The notes beneath the pieces are model-generated. The model was not told where the DNA came from. It searched no databases and worked only from the letters and a program-made list of their open reading frames with translations. From Pseudomonadota bacterium (GTDB lineage: Bacteria; Pseudomonadota; Gammaproteobacteria; Burkholderiales; Burkholderiaceae_E), in assembly GCA_963204785.1 (NCBI GenBank), contig CAUJHG010000036.1, forward strand, positions 1 to 64,000: DNA of 64,000 nucleotides. Reading direction: 5' to 3'. Positions 31,962 to 38,397 of this stretch are shown in pieces. Position numbers and translations under genes: made by a program. Numbering within the stretch: the stretch's first letter is position 1; each line of letters begins with the position of its first letter.

Positions 31962-33044
31962 TCAGTCGGCGACGAAGTTCTTCCATCCGGTGGCCATGTA
32001 CTCGACGAAGGCCGGGCCCAGGCCTTGCTGGCGCAGGTACTCGCGCGTCACCGGCCGCGGCACCGAGCGGAAGTCCGGATCGGCGAGCGCGCGCTTCGGG
32101 AAGTCCTGGTGCAGGATCGCGCCGCGGCCGATCAGCACGAAGTCGGCGCCGTGCTCGAGGCACCTGCGCGCGGTGGCTGCATCCATGATCTTGCCCGCCA
32201 CGCCCAGCGGCGTGGCGCCGCGCTCCAGGCCGGTGAACAGGTCGATCAGCGGCCTGCCCTGGTAGACCGGATCCACCGGCTCCTTGAAGCAGTCCCACAG
32301 CGACATGTCGAGGTAGTCGATCTTCCCGGAGGTCATCAGCTGCTGCGCGAAGCCGAGCACGTCGCCGATGTCCATGTCGAAGCGCTCCGGAGACAGCCGC
32401 ACGCCGACCTGGAAGTCCTTGCCGGCGCGCGCGCGGATGCCGTCGATGATCTCCCAGAACACCCGGCTGCGGTTCTCCAGCGAACCTCCGTAGCGATCGC
32501 CGCGCTGGTTGTGCACGGGGTCGAGGAATTCGCACAGCAGGTAGCCGTGGGCGCCGTGCAGCTCGACTCCATCGAAGCCGGCGCGCTCGGCGCGCAGTGA
32601 TGCGAGCACGAAATCCTCCACGAGCTGCTCGACCTCGCCGGTGCTCAGCGCGCGCGCGCCGCTCTCGGCATCGTCCCACGGGGCCACCCGCGGCAGCCCG
32701 CTCAGCCTGGTCTCGGCGCGCACCCCCGAGTGCTGGAGCTGGATCGAGCTGAGGCTGCCCTGCGCGCGGATGCCGCTGGCCAGCCGCTCCAGCCCCGGAA
32801 GGTGCTTGTCCGACCAGCTGCCGAGCTGGCCGGGGAAGCCCTGTCCGCCGGGCTGCACGTGCGAGGCGCAGGTCATCGTCAGGCCGAAGCCGCCGGCAGC
32901 GCGCAGCACGAGCCACTGGTACTCGTCGTCGCCGAGCGTGCCGTCGGCGTTGCTCTGGAAGTTCGTGAGCGGCGCGAGCATGAAGCGGTTCTTCATCGCC
33001 GGTCCGCGCGGCAGGGCGAGGGGATCTGAAAGCAGCCTGTTCAT
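31962..33044 (-). CDS. NADH:flavin oxidoreductase, Old Yellow Enzyme family
   Basis: The 360-residue FMN TIM barrel shows NRFMLAPLTNF near the start, IQLQHSG, then HGAHGYLLCEFLDPVHNQR with DRYGGSLENRSR (the OYE fingerprint). Late come VLIGRGAILH and a C-terminal tail. Such enzymes reduce activated double bonds, e.g. enones or 2,4-dienoyl-CoA; the length of 360 fits classical OYEs, not the larger FadH type. The ATG at 33044 (MNRLLSDPL) is chosen because the track extension to 33359 is antisense to the receptor gene and Arg/Pro-rich. Confidence 0.9.
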   Translation of the reverse strand: MNRLLSDPLALPRGPAMKNRFMLAPLTNFQSNADGTLGDDEYQWLVLRAAGGFGLTMTCASHVQPGGQGFPGQLGSWSDKHLPGLERLASGIRAQGSLSSIQLQHSGVRAETRLSGLPRVAPWDDAESGARALSTGEVEQLVEDFVLASLRAERAGFDGVELHGAHGYLLCEFLDPVHNQRGDRYGGSLENRSRVFWEIIDGIRARAGKDFQVGVRLSPERFDMDIGDVLGFAQQLMTSGKIDYLDMSLWDCFKEPVDPVYQGRPLIDLFTGLERGATPLGVAGKIMDAATARRCLEHGADFVLIGRGAILHQDFPKRALADPDFRSVPRPVTREYLRQQGLGPAFVEYMATGWKNFVAD

Positions 33045-33255
33045 CGGTCGATCGCATCCTGGGTGGTCGGTGGGATGGGGGAATCTACCGCGTTCCGGCC
33101 CGCCAGGCCGGGGCGGGCGGCGGCGCGCCAGTCCATTCCTGCTCCGGACGGCGCGCGCATGGGTGGCCAGCGCTATGCTGTGCGGCTTTCGCACGTGGCC
33201 GCACCGGGAAGTCGCCCGCCGGCCCGTCCCCTTGTGACGACCCATGGAGAAGAAG

Positions 33256-34464
33256 ATGACCGCACTCTCGAGACGCAGCTTCGGGATCTCGATGCTCGGC
33301 GCGCTCGCCGCCCCGGCAGTGTTCGCACAGAAGAAGTACGGCCCCGGCGCCAGCGACAAGGAGATCCTGCTCGGCCAGACCCAGCCCTACTCCGGAGGCG
33401 CATCGAGCTACGGCACCATCGGTCGCGCGGAATCCGCCTACTTCGACATGGTCAACGCCAACGGCGGAATCAACGGGCGCAAGGTGCGCCTGATCAGCCT
33501 GGACGACGGCTACTCGCCGCCCAAGACCGTCGAGATGATCCGCCGGCTGGTGGAGCAGGACGAGGTGATGGCGATCTTCGGGCTGCTCGGCACCCCGGGC
33601 AACTCTTCGGTGGCCCGCTACCTGAACCAGAAGCGGGTGCCGCAGCTGCTGATCTCGAGCGGCGCGAGCAAATGGCTGGACACCAAGACCTACCCGATGA
33701 CCATGACCGCGCTGCCCACCTACGACGCGGAGGCCTCGATCTACGCGAAGTACGCGCTGAAGCAGAATCCGAACGCGCGCATCGGCGTGCTCTACCAGAA
33801 CGACGACCTCGGTCGCGACTACCTGAAGGGCCTGCACCAGGGCCTGGGCGCGGCCGCGAGCAAGCACATCGCCGCCGAAGTCTCCTACGAAGTCACCGAC
33901 CCGACGGTCAACGCCCAGATCCTGCAGCTGCAGTCCTCGGGGGCGGACGTGCTGATCGTGGCCGCGGTGCCGAAGTTCGCGGCGCAGGCGGTGCGCCGGA
34001 TGGGCGAGATCGGCTGGAAGCCGCTGCTGGTGCTGACCAACGTCGCCAACTCGATCGGCACGGTGATCGAGCCCGCGGGGCCGCAGTACGCGGTCGGCGC
34101 GATCAGCGCGGCCTACATGAAGGATCCGACCGACCCGAGCTGGGCGAAGGACGAAGGCATGCTGCGCTGGCACGCCTTCATGGACAAGTACTACCCGAGC
34201 GGCAACAAGAGCGACGTCTACAACGTCACCGGCTACTACATCGCCAGCTTCATGCACCGTCTGCTCGAGCGCTGCGGCGACGAGCTGACCCGCGAGAACC
34301 TGATGCGCATGGCCGAGAGCGTCAAGGACTGGCAGTTCGACTCGCTGGTGCCCGGAATCCGGATCAGCACCTCGCCCACCGACCATGGCACGATCGAGCA
34401 GATGCAGCTGATGCGCTACGACGGCAAGCGCTGGGTGCTGTTCGGCGAGCTGATGCAGTCCTGA
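33256..34464 (+). CDS. ABC transporter substrate-binding protein (LivK/ANF-type receptor)
   Basis: The mature protein is a two-lobe periplasmic receptor of the Leu/Ile/Val family (EILLGQTQPYSGGASSYGTIG and GINGRKVRLISLDDGY). It begins with SRRSFGISMLGALAAPAVFAQ, a signal with a twin-arginine motif. The GGAG inside ATGGAGAAGAAGATG is spaced 6 nt from the ATG at 33256, so I prefer that over 33244. It stands alone; no permease or ATPase gene adjoins, so it must share a transporter encoded elsewhere. In Burkholderiales such orphan receptors often take aromatic or organic acids; ligand unknown. Confidence 0.88.
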   Translation: MTALSRRSFGISMLGALAAPAVFAQKKYGPGASDKEILLGQTQPYSGGASSYGTIGRAESAYFDMVNANGGINGRKVRLISLDDGYSPPKTVEMIRRLVEQDEVMAIFGLLGTPGNSSVARYLNQKRVPQLLISSGASKWLDTKTYPMTMTALPTYDAEASIYAKYALKQNPNARIGVLYQNDDLGRDYLKGLHQGLGAAASKHIAAEVSYEVTDPTVNAQILQLQSSGADVLIVAAVPKFAAQAVRRMGEIGWKPLLVLTNVANSIGTVIEPAGPQYAVGAISAAYMKDPTDPSWAKDEGMLRWHAFMDKYYPSGNKSDVYNVTGYYIASFMHRLLERCGDELTRENLMRMAESVKDWQFDSLVPGIRISTSPTDHGTIEQMQLMRYDGKRWVLFGELMQS

Positions 34465-34554: not shown

Positions 34555-35568
34555 TCACTTGGGCAGCATGTCCAGCGACTCGAGCACCTTGCGCTCGTCG
34601 ACCCACATCCGCTGGGCCAGTGCGTACCAGTCCTCGCCGCTCAGGTAGGCATTCTCGAGGTCGAAGGTCTCGAGATAGCCGCGATACTTCGGGTCGTCCA
34701 GCGCACCCTTGAAGGCGTCGTGGAGGGTCTTCACGACCTTCGGGTCCATGCCCTTGGGCCCCACCAGCCCGATCGGGCTGCGCGCGACGTGATTGATTCC
34801 GACCTCGAGCGCGGTAGGCACGTTGGGCAGGCGCGGCATGCGCTTGGCAGTGAATGCCAGCAGCACCCTGCCCTTGCCCTGCTTCTCCACCTGGGCCCAT
34901 CCGCCGTCGAGGACCGCGTTGATGTGGCCGCCGACGAAGGCTTGCAGCACCTCGGCGCCGCCCTTGAACGGAACGTGGTTGAGGTCGGCGCCGGTCTTCT
35001 GCACCATGCGCATCGTCGCCGCGTGGCCGGTGCTCGCGGCGCCGCTGGTGCCCACGTTGATCTTGCCCGGGTTGGCCTTCGCGTAGGCGATGAAGTCCTC
35101 GTAGGTCTTCCAGGGCGAGGTCTCCGGCACCACCAGCGCGAAGGTGTAGCCGGAGAAGCCCATGATGTAGGTGAGGTCCTTGAGCGGATCGTAGGGGACC
35201 TTCTGCATGTGCGGCACCTTGAACAGCGTCGCGGGGGCGACTGCGATCTGGTAGCCGTCGGGGTTCTTCGACTGCGCGACGATCCCGGAGGCCATCGTGC
35301 CGGCCGCGCCGGGCCGGTTCTCGACCACCACGGGCTGCCCGAGCGCCTTCTCGACCGGGACCGCGAGCGCGCGCAGGATCGCGTCGGTGGCGCTGCCTGG
35401 TGGAAAGGGAACGAGCACCGACACCGGTTTGGTCGGATAGGCGGCCTGCGCGAAGGCAGCGCCGGCGGGGACAGCCCCGATGGCGGCTGTGGCGGCTGCG
35501 CCGCGCAGCAGTTCGCGGCGCGCGGGGCTGTGCGCCGCGGTGCGGCGCAAGGAGGTCGGGCGGGTCAT
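34555..35568 (-). CDS. Bug/TctC family tripartite tricarboxylate receptor
   Basis: The 337-residue periplasmic receptor begins with a signal holding ARRELLRGAA (twin-arginine-like) and cleaves near AFAQA. It then shows the Bug family opening YPTKPVSVLVPFPPGSATDAILR, VVVENRPGAAG and GKINVGTSG. These receptors bind organic acids and related carboxylates for TctAB transporters; the membrane partners are not in the window, as is typical of the many orphan bug genes in Burkholderiales. It lies upstream of a gap of 110 nt behind the acyl-CoA ligase on the same strand going the same way. Confidence 0.9.
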   Translation of the reverse strand: MTRPTSLRRTAAHSPARRELLRGAAATAAIGAVPAGAAFAQAAYPTKPVSVLVPFPPGSATDAILRALAVPVEKALGQPVVVENRPGAAGTMASGIVAQSKNPDGYQIAVAPATLFKVPHMQKVPYDPLKDLTYIMGFSGYTFALVVPETSPWKTYEDFIAYAKANPGKINVGTSGAASTGHAATMRMVQKTGADLNHVPFKGGAEVLQAFVGGHINAVLDGGWAQVEKQGKGRVLLAFTAKRMPRLPNVPTALEVGINHVARSPIGLVGPKGMDPKVVKTLHDAFKGALDDPKYRGYLETFDLENAYLSGEDWYALAQRMWVDERKVLESLDMLPK

Positions 35569-35701: not shown

Positions 35702-37276
35702 TCAGATCCTGCGCTGCGCCTGCTGCCAGTAGGCCTCGCGCAGCAGTCGCTTCTGCAGCTTGCCGGTCTCGGTGCGCGGCATGTCCTGGCGGAAGTCGAA
35801 GCTGCGCGGCACCTTGTAGCCCGCGAGCGTGGCCCGGCAGTGACGCTCCAGCGCCCCGGCCAGCGCCGCGTCGGCCTGCACCCCCGGCGCAGGCTGCACC
35901 ACTGCCTTGACCTCCTCGCCGAACTCCGGGTGCGGCACGCCGATCACCGCGACGTCCTGCACCTGCGGGTGCGACGCGAGCACCGCCTCGATCTCGGCCG
36001 GATAGATGTTCACGCCCCCGGAGATGATCATGTCGATCTTGCGGTCGGTCAGGTAGAGGTAACCCTCGGCATCCATCCAGCCGACGTCTCCGGTCGTGAA
36101 CAGCCCGGCCCCCTGGTGCGCCGCGGCGGTCTTCTCCGGATCGTTGTGGTAGGCGACGTCGATCCCGCGGCGGCTGCGCATGTAGATCGTGCCCTGCTCG
36201 CCGGGCGCCGCCTCGCTGCCGTCGTCGCGCAGGATGATCGCGTCGGTCTGGAAGGTCGCGCGGCCCACGGACGCGGGGCGCTCGAGCCACTCCGCCGAGG
36301 AGATCCCGGTGACCACCGAGCCCTCGGTCGAGCCGTAGTACTCGTGGATGCACGGCCCCCACCAGTCGATCATCTCGCGCTTGACCTGGGGCGGGCATGG
36401 CGCGGCGCCGTGCCAGACCCGCACCAGCGAGCTGCCGTCGAAGCGCGAGCGGACCTCCGGCGGCAGCCGCAGCATGCGGATGAACTGCGTCGGCACCATG
36501 TGGACGTTGGTGACCCGGTGCGCATCGATCAGCTCGAGCGTGCGCTGCGCGTCGAAGCGCTCGGTCATCACCACCGAGAGGCCGGTCAGCATCGGGTAGA
36601 AGGACCAGCCGAACTGCGCGGAGTGGTAGTAGGGCCCGCACAGCAGCGTCACGCCGTCGGCCGGCAGTTCGAGGCTCGCTGCCAGGCCCTCGGCCATCAT
36701 CTGCAGCGCCTCGGCCGGCTGCATCTGCGCGCCCGGGCGCACCACGCCCTTGGGCCGCCCGGTGGTGCCCGAGGTGTAGAACATCGGCCCGCCCTGCAGC
36801 TGCCCGGCCGGATCGGAATCGTCGGTCTGCGAACCGACCAGCGCCTCGAAGTCCTGGAAGCCGGCCGGCGTCGTCGCGCCGGGGCCGATCGACGCGCAGA
36901 CCTTCAGGCGGCTCGCCGCGGCAGGAACCCGTTCGAGCGCCTGCGCAGCAACTGCGGCGAAACGGGTGTCGGTGAACAGGCCGAGCGCGCCGGAATCGGC
37001 GAGCACGTGGGCGAGCTCGTCGACCGTGAAGTGCCAGTTGACCGGCACGTAGCTGATCCCGGCGTGCGACGCGGCCGCCGTGAGCTCGTACACCGCGCGG
37101 CTGTTGCCGGCGAACAGTGCGATCCGGTCGCCAGGCGCCAGCCCGGCGGCGCGCAGCGCGCGCACCAGGCGGTTGGCGCGCGATTCGAGCTCGGCCCAGC
37201 TCAAGCTGCCGTGTTCGTCGATCAGCGCCGGCGCGTCGCCGCGCCGGCGGGCGATCGGGGCGATCGTCAGGGTCAT
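35702..37276 (-). CDS. AMP-forming acyl-CoA synthetase
   Basis: The 524-residue ligase shows MFYTSGTTGRPKGVVRPGA, EYYGSTEGSVV, LFTTGDVGWMDAEGYLYLTDRKIDMI and the C-terminal PRTETGKLQKRLL lysine motif. It is the fourth AMP-forming ligase in the window. The gene ends 123 nt after... upstream of the Bug receptor start and begins 40 nt downstream of the nitronate monooxygenase stop on the same strand, so it may share the PadR-controlled promoter. Its closest recognisable style is the short/medium-chain or bile-acid-type ligases, but the substrate is not determinable. Confidence 0.9.
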   Translation of the reverse strand: MTLTIAPIARRRGDAPALIDEHGSLSWAELESRANRLVRALRAAGLAPGDRIALFAGNSRAVYELTAAASHAGISYVPVNWHFTVDELAHVLADSGALGLFTDTRFAAVAAQALERVPAAASRLKVCASIGPGATTPAGFQDFEALVGSQTDDSDPAGQLQGGPMFYTSGTTGRPKGVVRPGAQMQPAEALQMMAEGLAASLELPADGVTLLCGPYYHSAQFGWSFYPMLTGLSVVMTERFDAQRTLELIDAHRVTNVHMVPTQFIRMLRLPPEVRSRFDGSSLVRVWHGAAPCPPQVKREMIDWWGPCIHEYYGSTEGSVVTGISSAEWLERPASVGRATFQTDAIILRDDGSEAAPGEQGTIYMRSRRGIDVAYHNDPEKTAAAHQGAGLFTTGDVGWMDAEGYLYLTDRKIDMIISGGVNIYPAEIEAVLASHPQVQDVAVIGVPHPEFGEEVKAVVQPAPGVQADAALAGALERHCRATLAGYKVPRSFDFRQDMPRTETGKLQKRLLREAYWQQAQRRI

Positions 37277-37316: not shown

Positions 37317-38285
37317 TCAGGCGGCCCGCGCGAACAGCTCCGCGCGCGCTGCCTCGTATTCTGCGGCGAAGCGGTCGATCAGCTCGGCGGCGCCGACCAC
37401 CTCGCTCAGCACGCCGATCCCCTGGCCGCAACCCCAGATGTCCTTCCAGGCCTTCGGCTTCTGGCGATCCGAACCGAAGTCCATCTTGCTCGGGTCGCTG
37501 GTGGGCAGGTTGTCCGGATCGAGCCCCGCCGCGACCAGCGAGGGCTTCAGGTAGTTGCCATGCACGCCGGTGATCAGGTTCGTGTGGACGATGTCGCCCG
37601 CCCCGCACTCGGTGATCATCTTCTTGTAGCCCTCGACCGCGTTGGCCTCCTTCGTCGCGATGAAGGCCGAACCGATGTAGGCCATGTCGGCGCCCATCGC
37701 CAGCGCCGCGAGGATCGAACGTCCGGACGCGATCGCGCCGGACAGCAGCAACGGCCCGTCGAACCAGGTGCGGATCTCCTGGATCAGCGCCAGCGGCGAC
37801 TGGAAGCCCGCGTGGCCGCCCGCGCCTGCGGCCACCGCGATCAGTCCGTCCGCGCCCTTCTCGATCGCCTTCTTCGCGAAGGTGTTGTCGATCACGTCGT
37901 GCAGGACGATCCCGCCGTAGCTGTGGATCGCGTCGTTGACCTCGCGGCGCGCGCCCAGCGAGGTGATCACGATCGGCACCTTGTGGCGCACGCAGGCCTC
38001 GAGGTCGTGGTCGAGACGGTCGTTGGACCTGTGCACGATCTGGTTCACCGCGTAAGGCGCCGAGGGACGATCCGGGTTCGCCCTGTCGTGCTCGGCCAGC
38101 TCGGTCTCGATGCGGGTCAGCCACTGCTCGAGCGCTTCCGCGGGGCGGGCGTTCAGCGCCGGAAAGGAGCCGACGATCCCGGCCTTGCACTGCGCGATGA
38201 CCAGGTCGGGGTTGGAGATGATGAACAGCGGCGAGGCCACCACCGGCAGGCGCAGGCGCTCGGTCAGGATCGGAGGCAGGGACAT
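37317..38285 (-). CDS. Nitronate monooxygenase (2-nitropropane dioxygenase family)
   Basis: The 322-residue FMN barrel has the class I signature VVASPLFIISNPDLVIAQ, the phosphate-binding and catalytic-histidine motif AAGAGGHAGFQSP and AAIASGRSILAALAMGADMAYIGSAFIAT. It oxidises alkyl nitronates such as propionate 3-nitronate, a respiratory toxin. The ATG at 38285 (MSLPPILTER) is chosen over 38348, which lies inside the operator region. It is divergent from a PadR regulator with two shared palindromic sites and is likely cotranscribed with the acyl-CoA ligase. Confidence 0.92.
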   Translation of the reverse strand: MSLPPILTERLRLPVVASPLFIISNPDLVIAQCKAGIVGSFPALNARPAEALEQWLTRIETELAEHDRANPDRPSAPYAVNQIVHRSNDRLDHDLEACVRHKVPIVITSLGARREVNDAIHSYGGIVLHDVIDNTFAKKAIEKGADGLIAVAAGAGGHAGFQSPLALIQEIRTWFDGPLLLSGAIASGRSILAALAMGADMAYIGSAFIATKEANAVEGYKKMITECGAGDIVHTNLITGVHGNYLKPSLVAAGLDPDNLPTSDPSKMDFGSDRQKPKAWKDIWGCGQGIGVLSEVVGAAELIDRFAAEYEAARAELFARAA

Positions 38286-38343: not shown

Positions 38344-38357
38344 TGCAACTGGTTGCA
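38344..38357. promoter_or_regulatory. Palindromic operator A in the nitronate monooxygenase/padR gap
   Basis: TGCAACTGGTTGCA is an inverted repeat of TGCAAC with a 2-nt centre. It overlaps the predicted transcription start of the monooxygenase gene and the -35 of the regulator promoter. Together with operator B it is the probable binding site of the adjacent PadR protein. Confidence 0.65.
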
Positions 38358-38359
38358 AA

Positions 38360-38388
38360 ACTCTATCGAAGCGGATCAGAATGTGCAA
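38360..38388 (-). promoter_or_regulatory. Sigma70-type promoter of the nitronate monooxygenase gene
   Basis: On the minus strand TTGCAC (38388-38383) is followed by a 17-nt spacer and TAGAGT (38365-38360). On the opposite strand TTGCAA (38353-38358) and CAGAAT (38377-38382) with 18-nt spacing could drive the regulator, so the two promoters overlap face to face. Confidence 0.55.
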
Positions 38389-38397
38389 CCTGTTGCA
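38384..38397. promoter_or_regulatory. Palindromic operator B in the nitronate monooxygenase/padR gap
   Basis: TGCAACCTGTTGCA has the same arms as operator A, 40 bp apart centre to centre. It overlaps the -35 of the monooxygenase promoter and the predicted start of the regulator transcript. Confidence 0.65.

Follow-up and report, generated by a model that had tools for sequence, protein, structure and literature searches.

The question raised by this locus is what reads two palindromes in the 185 bp between padR and the gene annotated as nitronate monooxygenase (nmo), and which genes are thereby controlled. The predicted elements found in the window, i.e. the whole stretch of 64,000 nucleotides analyzed, are given in Table 1.

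Table 1. Predicted elements of the nmo-padR locus, in coordinates of the window.
Element	Position	Strand	Basis and remarks
Operator O1, enzyme-proximal, TGCAACTGGTTGCA	38344..38357	.	exact palindrome; conserved at loci of PadR orthologs with 77% identity and of more distant ones; overlaps predicted nmo start
Operator O2, padR-proximal, TGCAACCTGTTGCA	38384..38397	.	exact palindrome; conserved; half-site supplies nmo -35 hexamer
nmo promoter, -35 TTGCAC	38383..38388	-	TTGCAN-17/18-TA pattern across loci
nmo promoter, -10 TAGAGT, spacer 17 bp	38360..38365	-	cross-locus comparison; predicted start ~38353, inside O1
Candidate padR-facing promoter, TTGCAA-18-CAGAAT	38353..38382	+	weak, not conserved
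padR, PadR / Vir_act_alpha_C regulator (AphA and Rv1176c type), 179 aa	38471..39010	+	start MSLPHAIL conserved
NMO-superfamily flavoprotein, FabK-like, main target	37317..38285	-	Pfam, sequence and fold searches
Acyl-CoA synthetase (AMP-binding), probable second gene of nmo operon	35702..37276	-	domain; 41 bp gap; Quisquiliibacterium order
TctC-type periplasmic binding protein, possible distal gene of nmo unit	34555..35568	-	domain; Quisquiliibacterium (L004) order

Twin palindromes and their conservation

An earlier note on this DNA described twin palindromes with identical arms lying 40 bp apart, and this description is exact at both positions. The sequence TGCAACNNGTTGCA occurs at 38344-38357 and 38384-38397, with 40 bp between the centres and 26 bp between the two copies, and these are the only two exact copies in the whole 3.29 Mb genome, for which about 0.06 are expected from base composition. 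The looser pattern TGCAA-N4-TTGCA matches the same two places only in the whole genome; TGCA-N6-TGCA matches 31, mostly with G+C-rich cores unlike the operator. The sole site with one mismatch elsewhere in the genome (C82:3036) lies within an apparent coding stretch and has no partner site. Since this lone outside site appears to be coding and is unpaired, and the upstream sequence read for the genome's own fadH has no site, a genome-wide regulon was rejected on the basis of exact and one-mismatch sites.

The earlier note read the arms as operators of the neighboring PadR and proposed a comparison of orthologous gaps, which we carried out and in which the arms were found conserved. Exact copies of the operator number 72 in the nearest 80 PadR-encoding loci of bacterial genomes (660 kb), mostly Streptomyces and hence not 80 independent cases, compared with an average of 0.011 and a maximum of 1 for 179 palindromes with permuted arms. 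Exact sites with an identified enzyme target lie about 55-240 bp upstream of the enzyme gene; some loci lacking an exact site have forms with one or two changes (TGCAATAAGTTGCA or TGCACTTTGTTGCA), and a few loci end before the enzyme start. Sites are also present in Thauera, Brevundimonas and other Burkholderiales, and the proteobacterial twins are spaced 39-40 bp, a spacing which persists down to 44-48% PadR identity. Many PadR loci carry a single site, which indicates that the twin arrangement is not essential. Three of 399 genomes sampled from the order have the twin pattern, each time beside a PadR of the same group. In Quisquiliibacterium, whose PadR and NMO are 77% and 92% identical to those of the window, 26/28 operator positions are identical as against 69/158 in the remaining gap (Fisher p = 5e-7).

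The presence of the site follows the regulator also when the enzyme is taken as the starting point. Thirty NMO orthologs were compared in 61 relatives. All three with a close PadR carry the sites; a fourth, whose PadR is diverged, shows an AphA-like site with one mismatch; and the 26 others (59-78% identical, four of them from the same genus), which lack this PadR, have no exact site. Loci of PadR homologs thus share the palindrome while NMO orthologs without this PadR lack it, which makes it very probable that the adjacent PadR binds the TGCAAC operator. Seven further PadR relatives were found among 274 genomes of the class, two with paired sites (40 and 37 bp apart), one with a perfect AphA-type palindrome, one with a one-mismatch site and three with none. 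In distant relatives from the class (L132 2053-2066, L136 1449-1499, L131 2029-2082) the AphA-type palindromes lie beside unrelated genes, in L132 adjoining a FAD oxidoreductase-like gene, which suggests an early origin of the operator within this branch of PadRs.

Two explanations that leave out the PadR have to be weighed against these data. That the palindromes arose by chance finds some room in the fact that the pattern with two mismatches is not uncommon in shuffled versions of the window, but the exact palindrome was met in none of 100 dinucleotide shuffles, and together with the genome count and the conservation across PadR loci this makes the probability of chance negligible, and we rejected it. 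It is also very improbable, if somewhat less so, that the palindromes are sites of another regulator or structural DNA, located near padR by inheritance only: their presence tracks the PadR and not the NMO gene, they follow the PadR to unrelated targets and into another phylum, and AphA, a homologous regulator, has a matching motif.

The PadR protein and the AphA-type operator

The PadR protein possesses a PadR winged-helix domain and a Vir_act_alpha_C domain, both above the Pfam gathering cut-off. Rv1176c of Mycobacterium tuberculosis is its nearest solved relative both by sequence (PDB 8ioi, 8e-27) and by fold (TM 0.82 for the model). Homology to AphA (1yg2) extends over the full length (E 1.2e-25), and the recognition-helix region SxGxFWxAxHQQxYREL is nearly identical in the two proteins. 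The ChIP-seq motif of Vibrio cholerae AphA is ATGCAA-N4-TTGCAT (PMC6855506), and its core TGCAA-N4-TTGCA is matched exactly at O1 and O2. What had been taken for a new PadR operator is hence of the AphA type, the motif of which is known (PMC6855506). AphA can bind cooperatively at two adjacent paired sites and represses several promoters, while expression of tcpPH is activated by it (PMC6855506). The two regulators are alike in belonging to the PadR family with Vir_act_alpha_C, in the operator TGCAA-N4-TTGCA and in adjacent paired sites. However, AphA is a global quorum-sensing regulator with many degenerate sites, whereas the PadR of the window has two exact sites in its genome, by its own gene and before a metabolic unit. 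Because both exact sites are located at its own gene, the PadR was rejected as an AphA ortholog with a many-site quorum-sensing regulon.

Promoters

The pattern TTGCAN, 17-18 bp, TA in the direction of the enzyme was found in 72 of 73 distinct orthologous and paralogous promoters (mean 7 and maximum 17 in shuffles), with TATTTT, TACATT, TATAAA, TACAGT and TACAAC among the TA-starting hexamers of other loci. The TTGCAN of the nmo -35 is the enzyme-facing half of the distal operator O2. In twin loci O1 begins 1-2 bp past the -10 and would cover the nmo start point. A consensus promoter scan found no promoter, which is due to the departure of this -35 from the consensus. In some Actinomycetota padR-fadH loci (L007, L042, L046, L070) the operator is asymmetric (TGCACTTTGTTGCA or TGCACCTTGTTGCA) and its -35 half is still TTGCA, which would be expected under a double constraint on this half.

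The situation on the padR side is different. Nothing consistent with a -10 matching CAGAAT was found in the padR direction in the five other twin-site loci, and a symmetrical padR promoter is thus not conserved among the six compared. Of the face-to-face promoters postulated earlier, the enzyme-facing one is thus conserved and the -10 of the other is not. Similarly, the proposed overlap of the operators with the -35 and start of both promoters can be traced in the sequence as geometry; comparison supports it for the nmo promoter and gives no such support for that of padR.

The controlled enzyme

The label "nitronate monooxygenase" derives solely from a match to the Pfam superfamily. Sequence searches place FabK enoyl reductases at the top, followed by characterized class I NMOs, and in fold searches FabK is first with solved NMOs close behind, the margin being small and FabK identity in the fold alignments about 20-25%. 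The flavoprotein reached the cut-off of no NMO or FabK model in NCBIfam; with the FabK model TIGR03151 it scores 75.6 bits against a cut-off of 453.1. The enzyme is accordingly FabK-like only and falls outside TIGR03151. His158 is invariant among the NMO orthologs and aligns with the His region of FabK. Criteria for class I NMOs, an active-site Met, Asn, His, Tyr and Lys and four conserved motifs, have been listed for PsNMO (PMC11510023). FabK and IpdC-type flavoenzymes belong to the NMO superfamily, and the FabK-like IpdC has a CoA thioester as substrate (PMC5380842). Two more NMO-superfamily paralogs, 41-42% identical, are present in the genome (C41:34730-35677 and C69:13483-14427); neither has the operator.

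The earlier note suggested that the acyl-CoA ligase may be in the same unit as nmo, which is probably the case: it follows nmo after 41 bp, and the order nmo, acyl-CoA synthetase, TctC-type binding protein is repeated in Quisquiliibacterium. A few kb beyond the nmo-acs unit there is an OYE-family FMN reductase (31965-33044, minus strand), near an ABC substrate-binding protein (33244-34461, plus strand) and a TctC protein.

In most related PadR loci fadH takes the place of the NMO gene. FadH is the target in Streptomyces, Thauera, Brevundimonas and one further Burkholderiales genome, and matches E. coli 2,4-dienoyl-CoA reductase (1ps9) over the full length with 964 bits; in Antrihabitans (Actinomycetota) the target is an NMO-type gene. 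In M. tuberculosis Rv1176c presumably adjoins fadH (Rv1175c). The padR-fadH units of Streptomyces, Thauera and Brevundimonas resemble the unit studied here in having a homologous PadR (48-57%), the same operator and its overlap with -35 and -10, and differ in having FadH as target instead of an NMO-superfamily gene. In Streptomyces there is one site and padR is located downstream of fadH in the same direction, so that the divergent arrangement with twin sites does not define the system but is one of its forms. On the strongly supported branches of the PadR tree the "nmo" target label has to change three times or more; as the tree is small and several of its forks are weak, it supports only that the label changed more than once.

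Other genes were also observed at such loci. A second twin-site PadR paralog in the genome of one member of the family (G014 C121, L095 2341-2480) has, in place of nmo, a divergent SnoaL-like gene as apparent target, and a SnoaL-related gene lies near the Brevundimonas padR-fadH unit (L037). The genome of the window has a fadH ortholog of its own (C67:31223-33238, L137), 57% identical to PadR-linked fadH. The upstream sequence read for it has no TGCAAC site, and this fadH therefore seems to have left the PadR regulon or never to have joined it.

A probable local repressor switch

We consider it probable, at roughly 80%, that the palindromes are PadR operators of a local repressor switch over the flavoprotein/acyl-CoA unit. 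One PadR dimer would bind each TGCAAC-N2-GTTGCA site. O2 would then cover the -35 of nmo-acs, the half-operator itself being the -35, and O1 the start point, so that bound PadR would block RNA polymerase and repress locally, possibly with cooperation between pairs spaced by 40 bp. PadR would be released by an inducer, for which an acyl-CoA or enoyl-type compound processed by the FabK-like flavoprotein and the ligase is the most likely candidate, and padR may also regulate itself.

Since AphA can also activate, the sign of control is inferred from the geometry of operators and promoter, which argues for a repressor rather than an activator. That the PadR activates, or has a dual role as AphA does at tcpPH (PMC6855506), with O2 recruiting polymerase, is quite unlikely, because O2 lies on the -35 and O1 on the start region of a conserved promoter, which is the geometry of a repressor, and because the nmo promoter has a recognizable -10. 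With repression as the preferred reading, it remains to be said to what the PadR would respond. The earlier note proposed detoxification of nitro compounds or propionate-3-nitronate, i.e. a PadR that responds to nitroalkanes or 3-nitropropionate by lifting the repression of a true nitronate monooxygenase. The Pfam NMO domain, the match of the fold to solved NMOs and the invariant, catalytic-type His158 would agree with it, but among solved proteins FabK enoyl-ACP reductases come closest, by sequence and narrowly by fold, no NCBIfam NMO model recognizes the enzyme, elsewhere the gene under homologous PadRs and this operator is fadH, the neighboring gene encodes an acyl-CoA ligase, and FabK-like IpdC uses CoA thioesters (PMC5380842). 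We consider this role improbable, at about the level of the activator. The nearest matches to FabK, the acyl-CoA ligase neighbor and the exchange with fadH make a role in enoyl- or acyl-CoA metabolism more likely for the flavoprotein than nitro detoxification. The switch thus probably serves the metabolism of unsaturated fatty acids, at the level of acyl-CoA.

Conclusions

No relevant publication on PadR together with dienoyl-CoA reductase or nitronate monooxygenase turned up in the literature searched, nor did a description of the padR-fadH units of Streptomyces, Thauera and Brevundimonas. The regulon of this PadR group is apparently undescribed, while its operator type is known from AphA. 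The PadR and its operator-promoter could be a reusable control cassette, constant across Proteobacteria and Actinomycetota, with the controlled enzyme alternating between non-homologous flavoproteins (FadH and NMO/FabK-like), an idea that is possible and on balance doubtful. If it is true, FadH and NMO/FabK-like enzymes would respond to one common enoyl-type signal, and AphA and similar virulence regulators would share ancestry with such switches of lipid metabolism. A PadR group with no regulon apparently described gains a testable operator, promoter layout and target, and the fact that fadH and "NMO" replace each other while repressor and operator stay the same is a concrete clue that some annotated nitronate monooxygenases may be enoyl/acyl-CoA flavoenzymes.
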